Source of the DNA: Candidatus Gastranaerophilales bacterium
GTDB lineage: Bacteria; Cyanobacteriota; Vampirovibrionia; Gastranaerophilales; Gastranaerophilaceae
Length of the DNA: 64,000 nt
Reading direction: 5' to 3'
NCBI GenBank assembly: GCA_028693235.1
Contig: JAQUVW010000003.1
Location: 246,069-310,068, forward strand
Below, in pieces: positions 43,897 to 54,461 of this stretch (positions are counted from its first letter, which is position 1; every line of letters starts with the position of its first letter). The notes under the pieces are model-generated. The model did not search any database, was not told the DNA's origin, and was given only the letters and a program-made list of their open reading frames with translations. Position numbers and translations under genes: made by a program.

Positions 43897-45294
43897 ATGA
43901 ATTCTATACAAAAAGCAATAGAAGCTTATCAAAATAACGATTTTGAACTCGCTGAGTCAATTTGCCTCGCCCCGATAAACATAGAACACAGTTTTGATGA
44001 TGTAGCAGACATTTTGGCAGCCATATATATTAATAAAAAAGATTTAAAAATTTTAAAGGACAAAAGTACATTTTACCTGCCGTTAATACGAAAAATCGCA
44101 GTGAACTGTTATAAACTTAACTTGAACGAAACGTCAAAAATATTTTTTGAAAAAGCACTACAATTAGATGTAAAAGACTATGTTGCTTGCAATTATCTTG
44201 GCTTGATAGCAGAACTTCTCTCAAACTACAAGGAGGCTGAAAAATTTTACCAAAAAGCAATAGAAATCACCCCCGACTATAACCCCATTTATAACATTGG
44301 AGTTTTATACAGAAAAACAGGTGATATAGACTCATCAATAAAATACTTAGAAAGAGCTTGCGAATTGCAACCGGTGAGCAAAACCGCCCATTACAGCTTA
44401 GGTATGTCTTATTTAATGAAGAAAGATTTTTATAAAGGCTATGAACATTTTATAAAACGAGAATTTAGAGAAAAAAGCAAATTAAAAAATGTAATTTTTA
44501 AGCTTGAACAAAAAAGCCACAAAGATAAAACAATTTTAATATACTGTGACGCAGGGCTTGGCGATGCTATAATGTTTTCGAGGTATTTCCCTTATTTAAA
44601 ACAACATTTTGAAGAAATAATCGTTTACGCAAGACGCGAATTAATTAACCTATTTCAATACTCTTTTAAAGACCTTATTTTTGTGGATGATATTAAGGAT
44701 ATAAATTATGACTGTTCGGTTTTAGCAATGAATTTACCATACTTATTAAACATGGATTTTGCACAAACCCCAACCGATTTTTACTTAAAGTCAGATGAAA
44801 ATAAAGAAAATATATATAAAAACAAATTTTTCAATTCTGATAAACTAAAAGTTGGAATAGTAGCTTACGCAGGTGGGCAAAGTCAAAGAACACAGAAGTT
44901 TCGGACTATTGGATTTGAAAAATTTTCTTTTTTAAAAGATTTTTCAAACATGGAAAAATATTCTTTTCAAAAATTTGATTTTGCACCGACTCCAATACTT
45001 CCTACTTATTTAACAGATATTGGAAATACCTTTTTTAATTTTTCAGATACCGCAGCAGCTTTAAAGAACATTGATTTGCTGATTTCTACAGATACAGCAA
45101 CCGCTCATTTAGCAGGAGCCTTGGGAATAAAAACATTTCTATTGCTACCTAATTGTTATGACTGGAGATGGTTCGACGGAAGCAAAGCTACACTATGGTA
45201 TAAAAACACGCAGCTTTTTGTCCAAACAGAAACCGAAAATTGGTCTGACGTAATTGAACAAATAAAAACAGAATTAAACAAAATGGCAAACTAA
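43897..45294 (+). CDS. TPR protein with glycosyltransferase (GT9/GT41-like) domain
   Basis: 465 residues. Residues about 60-190 hold tetratricopeptide repeats (YVACNYLGLIAELLSNYKEAEKFYQKA and following). The C-terminal half has the TPR-GT pattern: GLGDAIMFSRYFPYL, STDTATAHLAGALG and PNCYDWRWF. Such proteins may glycosylate proteins or belong to surface glycan assembly. The preceding 50-base gap contains no terminator. The end overlaps the convergent DtxR-like gene by 4 bases. Confidence 0.82.
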   Translation: MNSIQKAIEAYQNNDFELAESICLAPINIEHSFDDVADILAAIYINKKDLKILKDKSTFYLPLIRKIAVNCYKLNLNETSKIFFEKALQLDVKDYVACNYLGLIAELLSNYKEAEKFYQKAIEITPDYNPIYNIGVLYRKTGDIDSSIKYLERACELQPVSKTAHYSLGMSYLMKKDFYKGYEHFIKREFREKSKLKNVIFKLEQKSHKDKTILIYCDAGLGDAIMFSRYFPYLKQHFEEIIVYARRELINLFQYSFKDLIFVDDIKDINYDCSVLAMNLPYLLNMDFAQTPTDFYLKSDENKENIYKNKFFNSDKLKVGIVAYAGGQSQRTQKFRTIGFEKFSFLKDFSNMEKYSFQKFDFAPTPILPTYLTDIGNTFFNFSDTAAALKNIDLLISTDTATAHLAGALGIKTFLLLPNCYDWRWFDGSKATLWYKNTQLFVQTETENWSDVIEQIKTELNKMAN

Positions 45295-45797
45295 TTTGAG
45301 CAACCGCAACAGTTTTTACCTGTTCCTTTGTCATTAATACATTTTGCACATTTTTCCTGCATAATACCCTCGTTCAAATAATATTTGAAACTATTTTTCC
45401 ATTTAGGGGTTTTACACGAGCAATTCTGCATAAAGGTTAAATATTGAACAAATCTTTTTAAAACATCTTCAGGCATAGAGAACTCGATTTGAGAAGATGC
45501 GTCTTCTATTTTTTCATAAGGAAGCATCAGGCAAGTTTCCAAAAAATCAGAAATTATCTCATGCCTGCACCTTTTTTCTTTAATTGCAATTTTACCTTTA
45601 TTTGTAAGAGTAATAACACCGTAAGGTTTGTAGTTAAGGAACCCTTTTTTTTGAAGAGATTTGATAGCTTCCGAGGTAGAAGCTACCCCAATATTTAAGC
45701 TTTTGGCGACATCTTTTACTCTTGTAGCTGTTTCGACTTCAACAATGTCATAAACGGCTTTTAAGTATTTTTCTAGGCTTTCGGTTAATTTTTTCAT
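45291..45797 (-). CDS. DtxR/MntR-like regulator with Cys-rich tail
   Basis: 168 residues. The N-terminal winged helix (EKYLKAVYDIV, then RVKDVAKSLNIGVASTSEAIKSLQKKG) and RHEIISDFLE dimerisation/metal region match the DtxR family. In the metal site the usual EH pair reads EF, so classical Mn/Fe binding is altered. The last 55 residues carry seven Cys (CSC, CAKC, CCGC), nine in the whole protein, suggesting a bound metal or iron-sulfur cluster. It lies 21 bases after the 539-residue gene, in the same direction, so both are probably under the Cys attenuator. Confidence 0.82.
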   Translation of the reverse strand: MKKLTESLEKYLKAVYDIVEVETATRVKDVAKSLNIGVASTSEAIKSLQKKGFLNYKPYGVITLTNKGKIAIKEKRCRHEIISDFLETCLMLPYEKIEDASSQIEFSMPEDVLKRFVQYLTFMQNCSCKTPKWKNSFKYYLNEGIMQEKCAKCINDKGTGKNCCGCSN

Positions 45798-45818: not shown

Positions 45819-47438
45819 TTATTTTATCATGAGTTGTTTTTCTATGTTAATAAAGCATGAAGGAGTAGTATTTTGCCATTTATTATTTTTAACATTATTT
45901 TGAGATTTTTTGGTCATAGCAATGTTTAATTTAGGTAGCACGACACCCAACATCAAAGCAGAATAAGCAATTCCGGATAGATGTGCAATATTTAATTTTT
46001 TTATATTTTTCGCAACATCACGACCACCTTGAGCTGCAATTTCGGCATGAGTTTTTAATGAAACATCTTGCAACCAGTGTTTAATGCCGTTGCCCGATTT
46101 TTGAATATTAAAGAGTGCGTTTTGTTTTTTATCAAATAATTGAGCAACTCCTTTTGCAACAAACCCGCCAAATACTAACCAATTCAAAAAGCCCAAATAA
46201 TCTCTAACTACAGTTTCACGCAACTCTGTATTGTCTTTAGAAGCCAAAAAACGCCCTAAAATCAAAGCACCATAAACAGTTTTTATCGCATTTCCACTAG
46301 TCGTAGGACCTGTAAATTCTAACTTTTGAGCAAATCCTTTTAAGCTTTTTACATTCATTACTTTCGAAAGCATAAACACAAACCCTAATGAAGCAAGTGC
46401 TTTATTGATAGGTAAGTTTTTTTGAGCGGAAGATTTTTTATCTTTTTTATTAATATCTTCAACATAACCGTTATTGCCGACAAATTCAGAGCTACCTGTC
46501 CTTTTGTTTGTAATATAACGATTTAATACCTGATTAGAAAGTGCAATTATAGTTGATAGAGCGAGTGCTCCGCCGATTTTTATCCCGTTAATTTTTTTCA
46601 ATTTGCCTATAGCCGGTGCAATTTCCTCACTATTTGACGAAAAAACATTTTTCCCCATATCAACAACATCTCGCAAAATATTTTGAATAGGAGCACTCAC
46701 CGATTTTTGTCCGGAATTTACTACAATATTTCTTTCAGCCCCCAAGCCATTTGTTATACGCATAGAAATAATATTTAAAATATTTTTCGCATCATTTTTT
46801 GAGATTGAGTTGTCTGTAATCAATCTGGTAACGAGTTTTTCAATATTTTCTTTCGGATTACCTGTCTTTATAATATTTTCCTCAAGTCCTTTGAATTTTT
46901 CATTTTGCCATTTAAAATTTCTCCATTTATTTTTGTCAAACCAAGAGATAGTTGAAAAATCAGACATTTTCCAGCTTGTTTTATTTTCGCCATTGATACC
47001 ATACATATTGTCAAAAACTTTATGGACAAAGTTTTCAGGCGTCTTTGACGACTTTTGCCAAACGTCATTAAAGACATCAATAGTATTATTTGTAACCCAT
47101 GAATTATTATTTACTTTCACATTTGGTTTAACACGTTTAGAAGCCAATTTTTGTATTAAAATCGCAAAAAGCCCTGCTGAAAATTCAGCAATAAAAGTAC
47201 CGGTATATTCCCGAAAAGCCATCTCGGCACCTGCATATTTATTGCGTTCTTTGAACTCGACAATTGTCCTAGGCGTATCCATTGCAAATATATCAACAGC
47301 AGAAGCATTCAACATCGGGTTAGTATCAAGGAGGGTGAGTCCTTTTGTTAATATTCCATCTATAGGTCCTTTAAAGTTAGGCGAATAAGCATTTTTGTCA
47401 GTTCTGTTTATAGTTTTAGTTTTAGTTATGTTTAACAT
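45819..47438 (-). CDS. membrane-associated protein of unknown function (539 residues), attenuator-controlled
   Basis: No family recognised. Lys/Asn-rich, with about six hydrophobic segments (near residues 79-98, 290-312, 350-365, 395-410, 420-440 and 490-512) separated by charged stretches, and an N-terminal SPNFKG near residue 19 but no signal peptide. Only one Cys (near the C-terminus), so cysteine attenuation is not explained by its own composition. AAAGGA precedes the ATG. It is preceded by the leader peptide and hairpins at 47471-47591 and followed 21 bases later by the Cys-rich regulator. Confidence 0.7.
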   Translation of the reverse strand: MLNITKTKTINRTDKNAYSPNFKGPIDGILTKGLTLLDTNPMLNASAVDIFAMDTPRTIVEFKERNKYAGAEMAFREYTGTFIAEFSAGLFAILIQKLASKRVKPNVKVNNNSWVTNNTIDVFNDVWQKSSKTPENFVHKVFDNMYGINGENKTSWKMSDFSTISWFDKNKWRNFKWQNEKFKGLEENIIKTGNPKENIEKLVTRLITDNSISKNDAKNILNIISMRITNGLGAERNIVVNSGQKSVSAPIQNILRDVVDMGKNVFSSNSEEIAPAIGKLKKINGIKIGGALALSTIIALSNQVLNRYITNKRTGSSEFVGNNGYVEDINKKDKKSSAQKNLPINKALASLGFVFMLSKVMNVKSLKGFAQKLEFTGPTTSGNAIKTVYGALILGRFLASKDNTELRETVVRDYLGFLNWLVFGGFVAKGVAQLFDKKQNALFNIQKSGNGIKHWLQDVSLKTHAEIAAQGGRDVAKNIKKLNIAHLSGIAYSALMLGVVLPKLNIAMTKKSQNNVKNNKWQNTTPSCFINIEKQLMIK

Positions 47439-47470: not shown

Positions 47471-47498
47471 AAAAAAGCCCTTATGAAAATAAGGACTT
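47471..47498 (-). terminator. intrinsic terminator of the Cys attenuator
   Basis: Ten-pair stem with one G-U, four-base loop and six T on the minus strand, 32 bases before the start of the 539-residue gene. Confidence 0.88.
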
Positions 47499-47535
47499 CA
47501 ATACAAATATAATTTGTATGCCAATCTAAGTCCTT
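47471..47535 (-). promoter_or_regulatory. transcription attenuator: alternative antiterminator and terminator hairpins
   Basis: Read on the minus strand. Segment 1 AAGGACTT (47535-47528) can pair with segment 2 AAGTCCTT (47498-47491), enclosing a nested hairpin ATACAAAT/ATTTGTAT. Segment 2 is also the left arm of a 10-pair stem AAGTCCTTAT / ATAAGGGCTT with a TTTC loop followed by six T (47476-47471), an intrinsic terminator. The two structures exclude each other. Segment 1 overlaps the last codons and stop of the leader peptide, so ribosome position decides the fold. Confidence 0.85.
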
Positions 47536-47591
47536 ATATTTAAGAACTTACAACAGCAATTATTTTGTTTTTCAAGAGATATTTTTATCAT
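47526..47591 (-). CDS. leader peptide with three consecutive Cys codons
   Basis: 21 residues: MIKISLEKQNN, then CCC (codons 12-14, TGC TGT TGT), then KFLNIRT and TAG. The ATG lies 6 bases after a -10 element and has no SD, so translation would be leaderless. A ribosome stalled at the Cys codons (47558-47550) leaves segment 1 of the attenuator free; a ribosome reaching the stop covers it. This is the arrangement of trp/his-type leader peptides. Confidence 0.8.
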   Translation of the reverse strand: MIKISLEKQNNCCCKFLNIRT

Positions 47592-47597
47592 ATTTAG

Positions 47598-47626
47598 AGT
47601 ATTAATCAAATGACATTTTTTGTCAA
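47598..47626 (-). promoter_or_regulatory. promoter of the Cys-attenuated operon
   Basis: On the minus strand a perfect TTGACA (47626-47621) and AATACT (47603-47598) are 17 bases apart. The expected transcription start coincides with the leader-peptide ATG. The -35 overlaps an inverted repeat TGACA-N5-TGTCA (47611-47625), a possible operator. Confidence 0.7.
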
Positions 47627-47717: not shown

Positions 47718-48821
47718 ATGAGAATATTAATCGGTATGTCAGGAGGAGTAGACTCCTCAACAGCAGCCCTTATTCTAAAAGAACAAGGACACGAAGTTAT
47801 CGGTGCAACAATGTCAATTTGGGGCAAAAAAGGAATTTATAAAAAGCTTTCAGAGCAATCAAGCAACCTGCTGCCAAAAGCTAAACACGGTGCCTGCTTG
47901 GGACCTGACGAAAAAGAAGATATAGAAGCCGCAAAAAAAATATGCGAAGAAATTGGCATACCGTTCTACGTCTTTGACTGTGCGGAACAATATGAAAAGA
48001 TAGTGCTATCGAACTTTAAAAAAGAATACATGGCTGGCAGAACTCCAAACCCTTGTATCTGGTGTAATGCGTTGATTAAATTTGAAGCTTTACCCCAACT
48101 TGCGAAAGCTAATGGAATAAGGTTTGACAAATTTGCAACAGGTCATTATGCAAAAGTAGAATTCGATGAAAAAGCTAACCGATACTTGCTAAAAAAAGGG
48201 AAAAGCCCGAATAAAGACCAATCCTACTTTTTAAATAGACTTACTCAAAAGCAACTGGCAAATATATTGCTTCCCTTGGGCGATTATTCAAAAGAAGAAA
48301 TTAGGGATATAGCCTCAAAAAACGGCTTGAGCGTCGCAAGTAAAGCCGATAGTCAGGATTTTTACGAGGGCGATTACAACGAACTTTTGAATGTTAAACC
48401 TAAAAAAGGCAATATTGTTGATACTAAAGGAAATATTTTAGGCACGCACGATGGAATTTGGAACTACACTATAGGACAACGAAAGGGGCTTAAAATAAGC
48501 TCTGAAGCACCTCTTTATGTCCTCGAACTGGATAATGAAAAAAATGAAGTTGTTGTCGGATTTAAAAACAAAACATTTAAAAATGAACTAATTGCATCAG
48601 ATTTAAACTGGATAGCAATAACAAAACCTAAAGAAAATTTTCATTGTAAAGCGAAAATCCGTTCCACACAAACACCTGTAGCTGTAGAGATAAGACCAAA
48701 TGAGGACTTTTTAACTGTTGAATTTGAAGATTTACAAAAATCAATTGCTCCGGGACAAGCTATTGTCTTTTACAAAGAAGATATTGTATTAGGTGGTGGA
48801 GTAATTCGTAGCTGTAATTAA
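47718..48821 (+). CDS. mnmA: tRNA-specific 2-thiouridylase, variant form
   Basis: Thiolates U34 of tRNA for Lys, Glu and Gln using cysteine-derived sulfur. 367 residues. The ATP loop is GMSGGVDSS (residues 6-14), the first catalytic Cys is in NPCIWCN (Cys113, with Cys116), and TGHYAK, KDQSYFL and IGQRKGL follow. The usual second catalytic Cys (DICF motif) is missing: the segment reads SQDFYEGDY (residues 212-220). An extra segment with HGACLGPDE (residues 57-65) is also unusual. AGGAAAGG precedes the ATG. Divergent from the Cys-attenuated operon. Confidence 0.93.
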   Translation: MRILIGMSGGVDSSTAALILKEQGHEVIGATMSIWGKKGIYKKLSEQSSNLLPKAKHGACLGPDEKEDIEAAKKICEEIGIPFYVFDCAEQYEKIVLSNFKKEYMAGRTPNPCIWCNALIKFEALPQLAKANGIRFDKFATGHYAKVEFDEKANRYLLKKGKSPNKDQSYFLNRLTQKQLANILLPLGDYSKEEIRDIASKNGLSVASKADSQDFYEGDYNELLNVKPKKGNIVDTKGNILGTHDGIWNYTIGQRKGLKISSEAPLYVLELDNEKNEVVVGFKNKTFKNELIASDLNWIAITKPKENFHCKAKIRSTQTPVAVEIRPNEDFLTVEFEDLQKSIAPGQAIVFYKEDIVLGGGVIRSCN

Positions 48822-52505: not shown

Positions 52506-54461
52506 ATGCGAATTACTAATGACTCAACCGTAAAATTTTACGGCATCCAAAACCAAGTTCCACAAAAGAGAGAAGAAACAAGTTCAAAGCCATCAGGATT
52601 AGCCCCACAACCGCCGACGATTCCCAGCGGTCAGGCATCGAAAGCTTATGCAATGATTTCCTTTGGTGACTCAAATGTTTTTAAAGACAACAAAACACAA
52701 TCAAAAGAAATAGCAAACGAAGTTATTTCGAACGCAGCAAGTGCAAAGTATCTGACAAAGTCGCAACTAATTCAGGAATCATTGGAAAAAGAAGGCACAA
52801 TGCTTACTAAAGACGGTTCTTTGGTGATTGACACAGAAAAGTACACAGGCAGAACTCCGGGGGCTAAATTTTTTGTAGCAACCGATTCTGTAAAAAACAA
52901 AATAAATTGGGATGGAAGCAACAATATCCCTATTTCAAGAGAAACGGCAGATGAAATTGTCGAAAAAATCAAAGAACACTTGAAAGACAAAGATTTATAC
53001 TTGTATGACGGACAAGTCGGCTCAGATGATGATGTATCACTAGGTGCAAAATTTATCAATACATCAGCTGCCCAATCGTTATTCGTAAAAAATATGTTCA
53101 GAGAACCTTCGGAAAATTTTAAGAAAAATTCCGACTCAAAATTGACGGTTATTTCCGCTCCTGAATTCAAATTATCTGAAGAAGACAGAAAAAAATACGG
53201 ACTAAACAGCGAGGTTTTAATTATAGTTGACGTAGACAAAGGACTCATTACATCAACAGGTAGTAAATATTCCGGTGAAAACAAAAAATCTGTATTTTCT
53301 TTGATGAATTATTTATCACCCCAAAAAGGAATATTGCCAATGCACTGCTCAGCTAACGTCGGAAACGAAGACGATGTAGCATTATTTTTCGGTTTGTCAG
53401 GAACAGGAAAGACAACACTTAGTGCCGACCCTTTGAGAAGCATAATAGGCGATGACGAACATTTATGGAGTGACAAAGGCGTTTCAAATATTGAAGGTGG
53501 ATGCTATGCAAAAATGATAAATTTAAGCGAAGAAAACGAACCCGATATTTACCAAGCTTCTAACAGACGTGGAGCACTTCTGGAAAATGTACCCGTTAAT
53601 GCTGCAGGAACTCCTTTTTTCAGTTATGACATGAAAAATCCAGAATTTGTAAACTCATTAAGAGAACCTGAATTTGCAAAAATGCTAAGACTTCCTGAAG
53701 AATATATACAGAAATTATCAAATGAAAAAACTTTTGAAGCAACAATTAAAGATGAAGAATTTTTAAATCAACTTAACGCAAATCAAGTTGAAAACACAAG
53801 GAGCAGTTACCCTGTAGAACATATCGGAAATGCGTTGATGGAAGGTAAAGTCAACAAGCAACCTAAAAATGTTATATTTTTAACCTACGATGCTTCAGGA
53901 ATTATGCCACCGGTTGCAAAATTATCCCCTGAGCAAGCTAAATACTTCTTTATGAGTGGATATACAAGCAAAGTAGCAGGGACGGAAAGAGGTATAAAAG
54001 AGCCTCAATCTACATTCTCAGCTTGTTTTGGAGCACCTTTTATGCCACTGCATCCTGTTGAATATGCAAATTTACTCGAAAACAAAATTAATAAAGTAAA
54101 AGAATCAGGACAAGACTGCAATGTCTGGTTGATTAACACTGGATTAATCGGAGGAGCCTACGGAAAAGGCGGCGAACGAATAAGTATCAAAAACACAAGG
54201 AACCTATTAAATTCGATATTAGACGGAGATTTAAAAAATGCAGAATTTGATAAAGATAAAACATTCGGTTTTGAAATACCTAAATCTTGCACAGGTGTAG
54301 ACTCTCAAATCTTAAACCCTAAAAACGCTTGGGCAGATAAAGAGGCATATGAAGAAACAGCAAAAAAATTAGCCGGTGATTTTATCAAAAATTTCAAAAA
54401 ATACGAAAACAATCCTGATGCAATAAAACTTGCTGAAGAATATGGACCTAAAATAGATTAA
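52506..54461 (+). CDS. pckA: phosphoenolpyruvate carboxykinase (ATP), enlarged
   Basis: Interconverts oxaloacetate and phosphoenolpyruvate with ATP/ADP. 651 residues against about 530-540 in the family. TGRTPGAKF (substrate loop), MHCSANVG, the P-loop GLSGTGKTT (residues 296-304), GDDEHLWSDKGVSNIEGGCYAK and ENTRSSYPVEHI are intact. Two additions: about 50 residues at the N-terminus, rich in Pro, Gln and Ser, and about 50 residues between ALLENV and ENTR (about 365-425) rich in Glu, Leu and Phe. In gut anaerobes the enzyme often fixes CO2 on phosphoenolpyruvate during fermentation. Confidence 0.93.
   Translation: MRITNDSTVKFYGIQNQVPQKREETSSKPSGLAPQPPTIPSGQASKAYAMISFGDSNVFKDNKTQSKEIANEVISNAASAKYLTKSQLIQESLEKEGTMLTKDGSLVIDTEKYTGRTPGAKFFVATDSVKNKINWDGSNNIPISRETADEIVEKIKEHLKDKDLYLYDGQVGSDDDVSLGAKFINTSAAQSLFVKNMFREPSENFKKNSDSKLTVISAPEFKLSEEDRKKYGLNSEVLIIVDVDKGLITSTGSKYSGENKKSVFSLMNYLSPQKGILPMHCSANVGNEDDVALFFGLSGTGKTTLSADPLRSIIGDDEHLWSDKGVSNIEGGCYAKMINLSEENEPDIYQASNRRGALLENVPVNAAGTPFFSYDMKNPEFVNSLREPEFAKMLRLPEEYIQKLSNEKTFEATIKDEEFLNQLNANQVENTRSSYPVEHIGNALMEGKVNKQPKNVIFLTYDASGIMPPVAKLSPEQAKYFFMSGYTSKVAGTERGIKEPQSTFSACFGAPFMPLHPVEYANLLENKINKVKESGQDCNVWLINTGLIGGAYGKGGERISIKNTRNLLNSILDGDLKNAEFDKDKTFGFEIPKSCTGVDSQILNPKNAWADKEAYEETAKKLAGDFIKNFKKYENNPDAIKLAEEYGPKID

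Follow-up and report, generated by a model that had tools for sequence, protein, structure and literature searches.

A putative cysteine-sensing attenuator, with a serine version in one clade, upstream of an uncharacterised gene family of Gastranaerophilales

The closest described systems are the trp and his attenuators of enteric bacteria. They share with the element analyzed here a run of regulatory codons in a leader ORF, an antiterminator and a terminator with one segment in common, and a stop codon adjoining segment 2, the 5' arm of the antiterminator. Unlike the enteric systems, this element, found in Gastranaerophilales, putatively senses cysteine (serine in one clade) and precedes an uncharacterised target that is not known to be biosynthetic; further, the hairpin formed by segments 1 and 2 (1:2) is not general, and many leaders are apparently leaderless. 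Short upstream ORFs with a series of Cys codons are also found in mycobacteria and in other actinobacteria (PMC1262725; Canestrari et al. 2020), and these polycysteine ORFs, too, may be translated leaderless, but they lie upstream of cys genes and lack a conserved intrinsic terminator, whereas here the terminator and antiterminator co-vary and the target is different. The features by which the mycobacterial polycysteine ORFs are recognized, absence of a terminator and a cys operon as the target, are not met, as a terminator is present in 119 of 129 loci and the target is not a cys gene. A sequence-only reading of the locus had placed known Cys-rich leaders in actinobacteria; this was too narrow, since a two-Cys attenuator is described at cysS of Rhodobacterales (PMC8632094). 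In that motif, uORFC-8-2, Cys codons in an upstream ORF are likewise followed by an intrinsic terminator and transcription attenuation is proposed, but there are only two Cys codons, the target is cysS, the hosts are alphaproteobacteria, and no Ser version was reported (PMC8632094). Serine starvation is sensed by TCN codons in sinR of B. subtilis, where the codons slow the synthesis of the protein itself (PMC3862929), whereas here they stand in an attenuator leader. Switching of the sensor type is known at hisS (PMC2965389).

The locus lies in a 64,000-nt window, that is, the whole stretch of DNA analyzed, to which all coordinates refer. It comes from a 2.1 Mb genome of a Gastranaerophilales bacterium (Melainabacteria), whose nearest relatives are mostly Candidatus Gastranaerophilales or MAGs, many of them from rumen or gut, the order being placed in Candidatus Melainabacteria. 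The attenuator is on the minus strand, between the divergently transcribed mnmA gene (tRNA 2-thiouridylase; 47718-48821, plus strand), mentioned for context only, and a gene encoding a protein of 539 amino acids (45819-47438, minus strand). On the minus strand, the -35 element TTGACA (47621-47626) and the -10 element AATACT (47598-47603), separated by a 17-nt spacer, together match the consensus at 10 of 12 positions, and a TTGACA-like -35 element (at least five of six bases) is found in 123 of 129 leader loci. The leader ORF MIKISLEKQNNCCCKFLNIRT (47526-47591, minus strand) has 21 codons and a TAG stop, and contains three consecutive Cys codons, TGC TGT TGT (47550-47558, minus strand), the proposed sensor. 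The sequence-only reading had listed this promoter, with all its elements in place, and the 21-codon leader with its three Cys codons, and on both points it held.

Judged by spacing only, the transcription start is predicted to coincide with the leader ATG or to adjoin it. As the -10 hexamer in the window ends 6 nt before this ATG, leaderless translation of the leader is possible, an inference from consensus only. A gap of 6-7 nt separates the best -10 hexamer from the chosen ATG downstream in 34 of the 64 Cys leaders; only 12 of the 64 are preceded by a Shine-Dalgarno-like sequence, versus 36 of 65 Ser leaders. Many Cys leaders, including that of the window, could be leaderless, as in mycobacteria, with nothing beyond consensus matching to support this.

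A full set of alternative, overlapping hairpins, 1:2, 2:3, and 3:4, is present in the window leader, with all segments on the minus strand. Segment 1, AAGTTCTTA (47541-47549), directly follows the Cys codons and pairs with segment 2, TAAGGACTT (47528-47536), in a protector hairpin. Segment 2, which also forms the 5' arm of the antiterminator, lies within the last leader codons: it starts 13 nt past the last Cys codon, covers codons 19-21, and abuts the stop. Segment 3, GAAGTCCTTAT (47489-47499), is common to the antiterminator (2:3) and the terminator (3:4), and folding places an additional 8-bp hairpin (47501-47519) within the antiterminator loop. Segment 4 and the T-run, ATAAGGGCTTT (47471-47484), comprise the 3' arm of an intrinsic terminator (47484-47474) and T6 (47476-47471); this terminator is 32 bases upstream of the start of the 539-aa gene and ends upstream of its ribosome-binding site. 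Compared with 200 dinucleotide shuffles, the energies are -7.2 kcal/mol for 1:2 (z -5.3), -13.9 kcal/mol for 2:3 (z -4.4), and -11.5 kcal/mol for 3:4 (z -4.5), and in each case none of the 200 shuffles was as good. An Rfam search of the whole window, covering T-box, riboswitch, and other families, gave zero matches at the gathering score. The two mutually exclusive hairpins proposed in the sequence-only reading, the second being a terminator with a T-run, were confirmed; the third, 1:2, had been missed, and the distance from the Cys codons to the antiterminator arm, given there as 14 bases, is 13.

Of 383 genomes sampled in the order, 126 encode an ortholog of the 539-aa protein (E <= 1e-60). 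A sample covering the phylum gave a match to the target in 62 genomes, every one from the family to which the window belongs; the genomes listed from other classes lacked it. Among 131 upstream regions of target orthologs gathered for comparison, the tract consists of Cys codons in 64 and of Ser codons in 65, and two have neither. An unbiased count of tracts of all amino acids in these regions gave serine 66 and cysteine 62, asparagine being next with 15, and an unbiased scan found a short ORF beginning with ATG and containing a tract of Cys or Ser codons in 126 of them, so that depending on the count the tract occupies the same place in 126-129 of 131 loci. Such tracts were absent from all 42 upstream regions of paralogs (25-35% identity) and occurred in 38 of 1360 shuffled upstreams; given 126 of 131 in orthologs, chance is ruled out. 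An intrinsic terminator accompanies the leader in 119 of 129 Cys or Ser loci, leaving about ten leaders without a recognizable one. Some leaders upstream of target genes are decayed: in L142 (genome G278) a premature stop precedes the Cys tract, in L147 (G154) the tract is down to two Cys codons, and in L084 (G253) the leader is lost. A DNA search of the window's own genome for further leader copies retrieved only the leader itself and a 24-nt chance match in an apparent coding sequence, and a whole-genome count of TGYTGYTGY was uninformative as a leader finder, since this pattern occurs too often in other reading frames. We also rejected the possibility that every paralog has a leader for some other amino acid: Cys and Ser tracts were missing from all 42, and no tract of another kind recurred consistently.

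The pairing of the segments was compared within and between loci, as a control for composition, in 34 representatives (sequence similarity ratio <0.75). Segment 2 pairs with its own segment 3 at -11.8 versus -8.3 kcal/mol between loci, and segment 3 with its own segment 4 at -16.3 versus -7.1 kcal/mol, neither difference being reached in 2000 permutations; the control pairing of segment 2 with segment 4 showed no own-locus effect in these representatives. In a subset of 18 Ser loci, the share of paired cells is 97.9% for 2:3 and 99.3% for 3:4, two-sided compensatory changes occur at four of eight pairs of 2:3 and five of eight pairs of 3:4, and sliding the pairing partner abolishes the signal. 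The three segments change jointly at the same positions, as in CGGGACTT/AAGTCCCG/CGGGACTT, CGGAACTT/AAGTTCCG/CGGAACTT, and CAGAGCTT/GAGCTCTG/CAGAGCTT for segments 2/3/4. The mutually exclusive antiterminator and terminator are conserved by pairing. For the protector hairpin, which is clear in the window, the mean z across the 34 representatives is -0.3, which is not significant. The start of segment 2 is at a median of 10 nt (IQR 8-11) past the tract and its end is near the stop, a geometry in which a ribosome stalled at the tract would leave segment 2 free, and one at the stop would cover it; the distances are observed in the sequences, the stalling is inferred.

Serine codons in the Ser leaders are TCC (210), TCA (139), TCG (44), TCT (19), AGT (15), and AGC (13), that is, 94% TCN and 48% TCC; taking the target genes together, no serine codon is rarer than TCC (7%), and AGY accounts for 31%. 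The share of TCC is 3.5% in target genes of Ser leaders versus 8.5% in those of Cys leaders, and the share of AGY is 39% versus 26%. In serine-starved B. subtilis, ribosomes slow at UCN codons only among serine codons (PMC3862929). The proteins behind Cys leaders contain 0.18% Cys, those behind Ser leaders 0.49%, and neighboring ORFs 1.57%; the respective Ser contents are 7.06%, 4.19%, and 6.34%. Depletion of the sensed amino acid is expected if the targets are made during its shortage. Since the Cys-to-Ser shift is a single event, the p-values for composition are not independent and the contrasts are at the level of clades; low Cys content alone is weak evidence, because some paralogs without a Cys leader are also Cys-poor.

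In a tree of 36 full-length orthologs, all 17 proteins with Ser leaders form one clade (support 100/98), and in a tree rooted with paralogs this clade is nested within the Cys-leader group, albeit with long outgroup branches. Thus cysteine is the older state, and the Ser leaders go back to a single retargeting from Cys to Ser. Seven of nine two-copy genomes (G132, G175, G204, G228, G282, G336, and G369) have one Cys and one Ser leader; of the remaining two, G078 has two Cys leaders and G356 two Ser leaders. Serine is the precursor of cysteine, and serine starvation in B. subtilis slows Cys codons too (PMC3862929). This connection might have eased the change, although we can only infer it.

In all likelihood the element works by ribosome-mediated transcription attenuation of the trp/his type, sensing charged tRNA-Cys. 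What comparison shows is the leader with its tract, the pairing and co-variation of the segments, the geometry, and one change from Cys to Ser; translation of the leader itself is not shown, and stalling, read-through, and the response to starvation are inferred, without bench, expression, ribosome-profiling, or starvation data from organisms that are mostly uncultured. A ribosome would translate the leader as RNA polymerase transcribes it. With ample Cys-tRNA, this ribosome would pass the Cys codons and reach the stop adjoining segment 2, masking this segment, so that segments 3 and 4 would form the terminator and the downstream gene would be off. When Cys-tRNA is scarce, the ribosome would stall on the Cys codons, masking segment 1 but not segment 2, about 10-13 nt further; the free segment 2 would pair with segment 3, no terminator would form, and the target gene, here together with a DtxR-family gene, would be transcribed. 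In the Ser clade, TCN serine codons replace the Cys codons and the same device would read serine. The sequence-only reading had proposed trp/his-like geometry for cysteine, and comparison supports it, cysteine dependence itself being unmeasured. It would have been refuted by homologous loci without the Cys codons or the paired segments: Cys codons are found in 64 of 131 loci, with serine codons at the same place in 65, and pairing is kept while the sequence changes. The Ser loci do not refute attenuation, as they form one clade with the same architecture, a TCN codon choice, and Ser-poor targets.

Several other explanations could be considered. The nascent Cys-rich peptide could itself be the sensor, binding a metal or reacting with an oxidant and thereby stalling or releasing the ribosome, as might be suggested by the Cys tract and by the DtxR-family gene that immediately follows the target in several Cys loci. 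However, Ser replaces Cys in half of the orthologs with the architecture unchanged, the codon-level selection for TCN and TCC in Ser leaders is not needed by a peptide sensor, nor does such a sensor predict depletion of the amino acid in the targets, and most loci have no DtxR gene behind, among them 21 Cys loci in which a GDSL-hydrolase gene takes its place; we regard this explanation as highly improbable. The tract could also act as RNA rather than as codons, with TCC repeats serving, for instance, as a pyrimidine tract or an anti-Shine-Dalgarno sequence, since TCCTCC, present in many Ser leaders, could pair with an AGGAGG-like ribosome-binding site. This can hardly be the case: the Cys tracts (TGY) contain no such sequence, all four TCN codons are used in the Ser tracts and vary at the third position in frame, and the target genes are poor in the corresponding amino acid and codon.

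Finally, the leader could control downstream translation and not transcription termination. Mycobacterial Cys leaders, which have no terminators, are described as translational attenuators (PMC1262725; PMC13236596), and about half of the Cys leaders here look leaderless too. Against this stand the T-run intrinsic terminators in 119 of 129 loci, with their co-varying stem, and the position of the window's terminator, which ends before the ribosome-binding site, making translational control a very remote alternative. Transcription attenuation by a ribosome reading Cys or Ser codons remains the preferred explanation.

The regulated 539-aa protein is helical, with five moderate hydrophobic peaks and a single Cys residue. 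Pfam and NCBIfam searches with it gave nothing above the cut-off. The predicted structure is confident and all-helical (pLDDT 84.9, pTM 0.82), and a Foldseek search with this model found no match at E <= 0.001 and no PDB fold match. The top Foldseek rows were homologs of glutamate transporters, including a cysteine-bound EAAT3, but with TM-scores of about 0.1-0.2 and rmsd >20 they are no evidence for a transporter. A metal-dependent regulator of the DtxR family with a Cys-rich tail is encoded 21 nt downstream (45291-45797, minus strand), probably in the same transcript. Its C-terminal tail (CSC...CxxC...CCGC) is common to orthologs by the same gene in other genera. A DtxR-family gene directly follows the target in at least nine of 91 loci and is absent behind most, and a GDSL-hydrolase gene directly follows it in 21 Cys loci; neither was found directly behind genuine Ser loci, the sole Ser/DtxR entry, L292, being in fact a mis-called Cys locus. 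The divergent neighbors of some Cys loci are the genes for MnmA, BioB, ThiF, and CysK. Cysteine synthase was rejected as a further regulon member: no leader was found at the cysK loci examined in these bacteria, and thus the device is not a general control of cysteine biosynthesis.

The mechanism of the trp/his type and Cys leaders as such are already known. What is new is that the element occurs in this lineage, that its target family is uncharacterised, and that Cys was swapped for Ser, with both types of copy present in seven of nine two-copy genomes; no Ser-tract attenuator and no leader peptide in Gastranaerophilales was reported in the literature searched, which is weak evidence of absence. 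These observations extend leader-peptide attenuation to non-photosynthetic gut relatives of cyanobacteria and tie an anonymous protein family to the supply of cysteine or serine. They also provide a natural experiment: codon substitution changes the amino acid read by a ribosome-based sensor and leaves the RNA switch unchanged, and codon choice in sensor and target gene alike appears to have tracked the change, so that the theory of regulatory codon choice (PMC1183508) becomes directly testable. A bolder reading is that Gastranaerophilales have an unrecognised response to cysteine or serine starvation, in which a family without a PDB fold match is switched by an attenuator whose sensor was retargeted once from Cys to Ser, some genomes then keeping one Cys-listening and one Ser-listening copy, and in which the protein has a dedicated function in scavenging, uptake, or the envelope and is not a biosynthetic enzyme. 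Taken as one joint claim, this is speculative, and we lean slightly against it.

The target is a member of a larger paralogous family without the Cys or Ser leader, confined to Gastranaerophilales in our sample. Its members include 110387-111646 and 139515-140945 on contig C5 of genome G000, and they often stand as two genes in tandem, such pairs being present in most genomes of the order. A recurrent N-terminal motif, a stretch of 15-30 residues rich in N, S, and K and ending in F-K-G, F-G-G, or similar, was observed in many proteins, its role being unknown. It is carried by the products of 45819-47438 and 52506-54461 in the window, by those of 5394-6026 in L035, 1514-2647 in L036, and 12380-12667 in L038, and by others, one of the carriers being a phosphoenolpyruvate carboxykinase-like protein.
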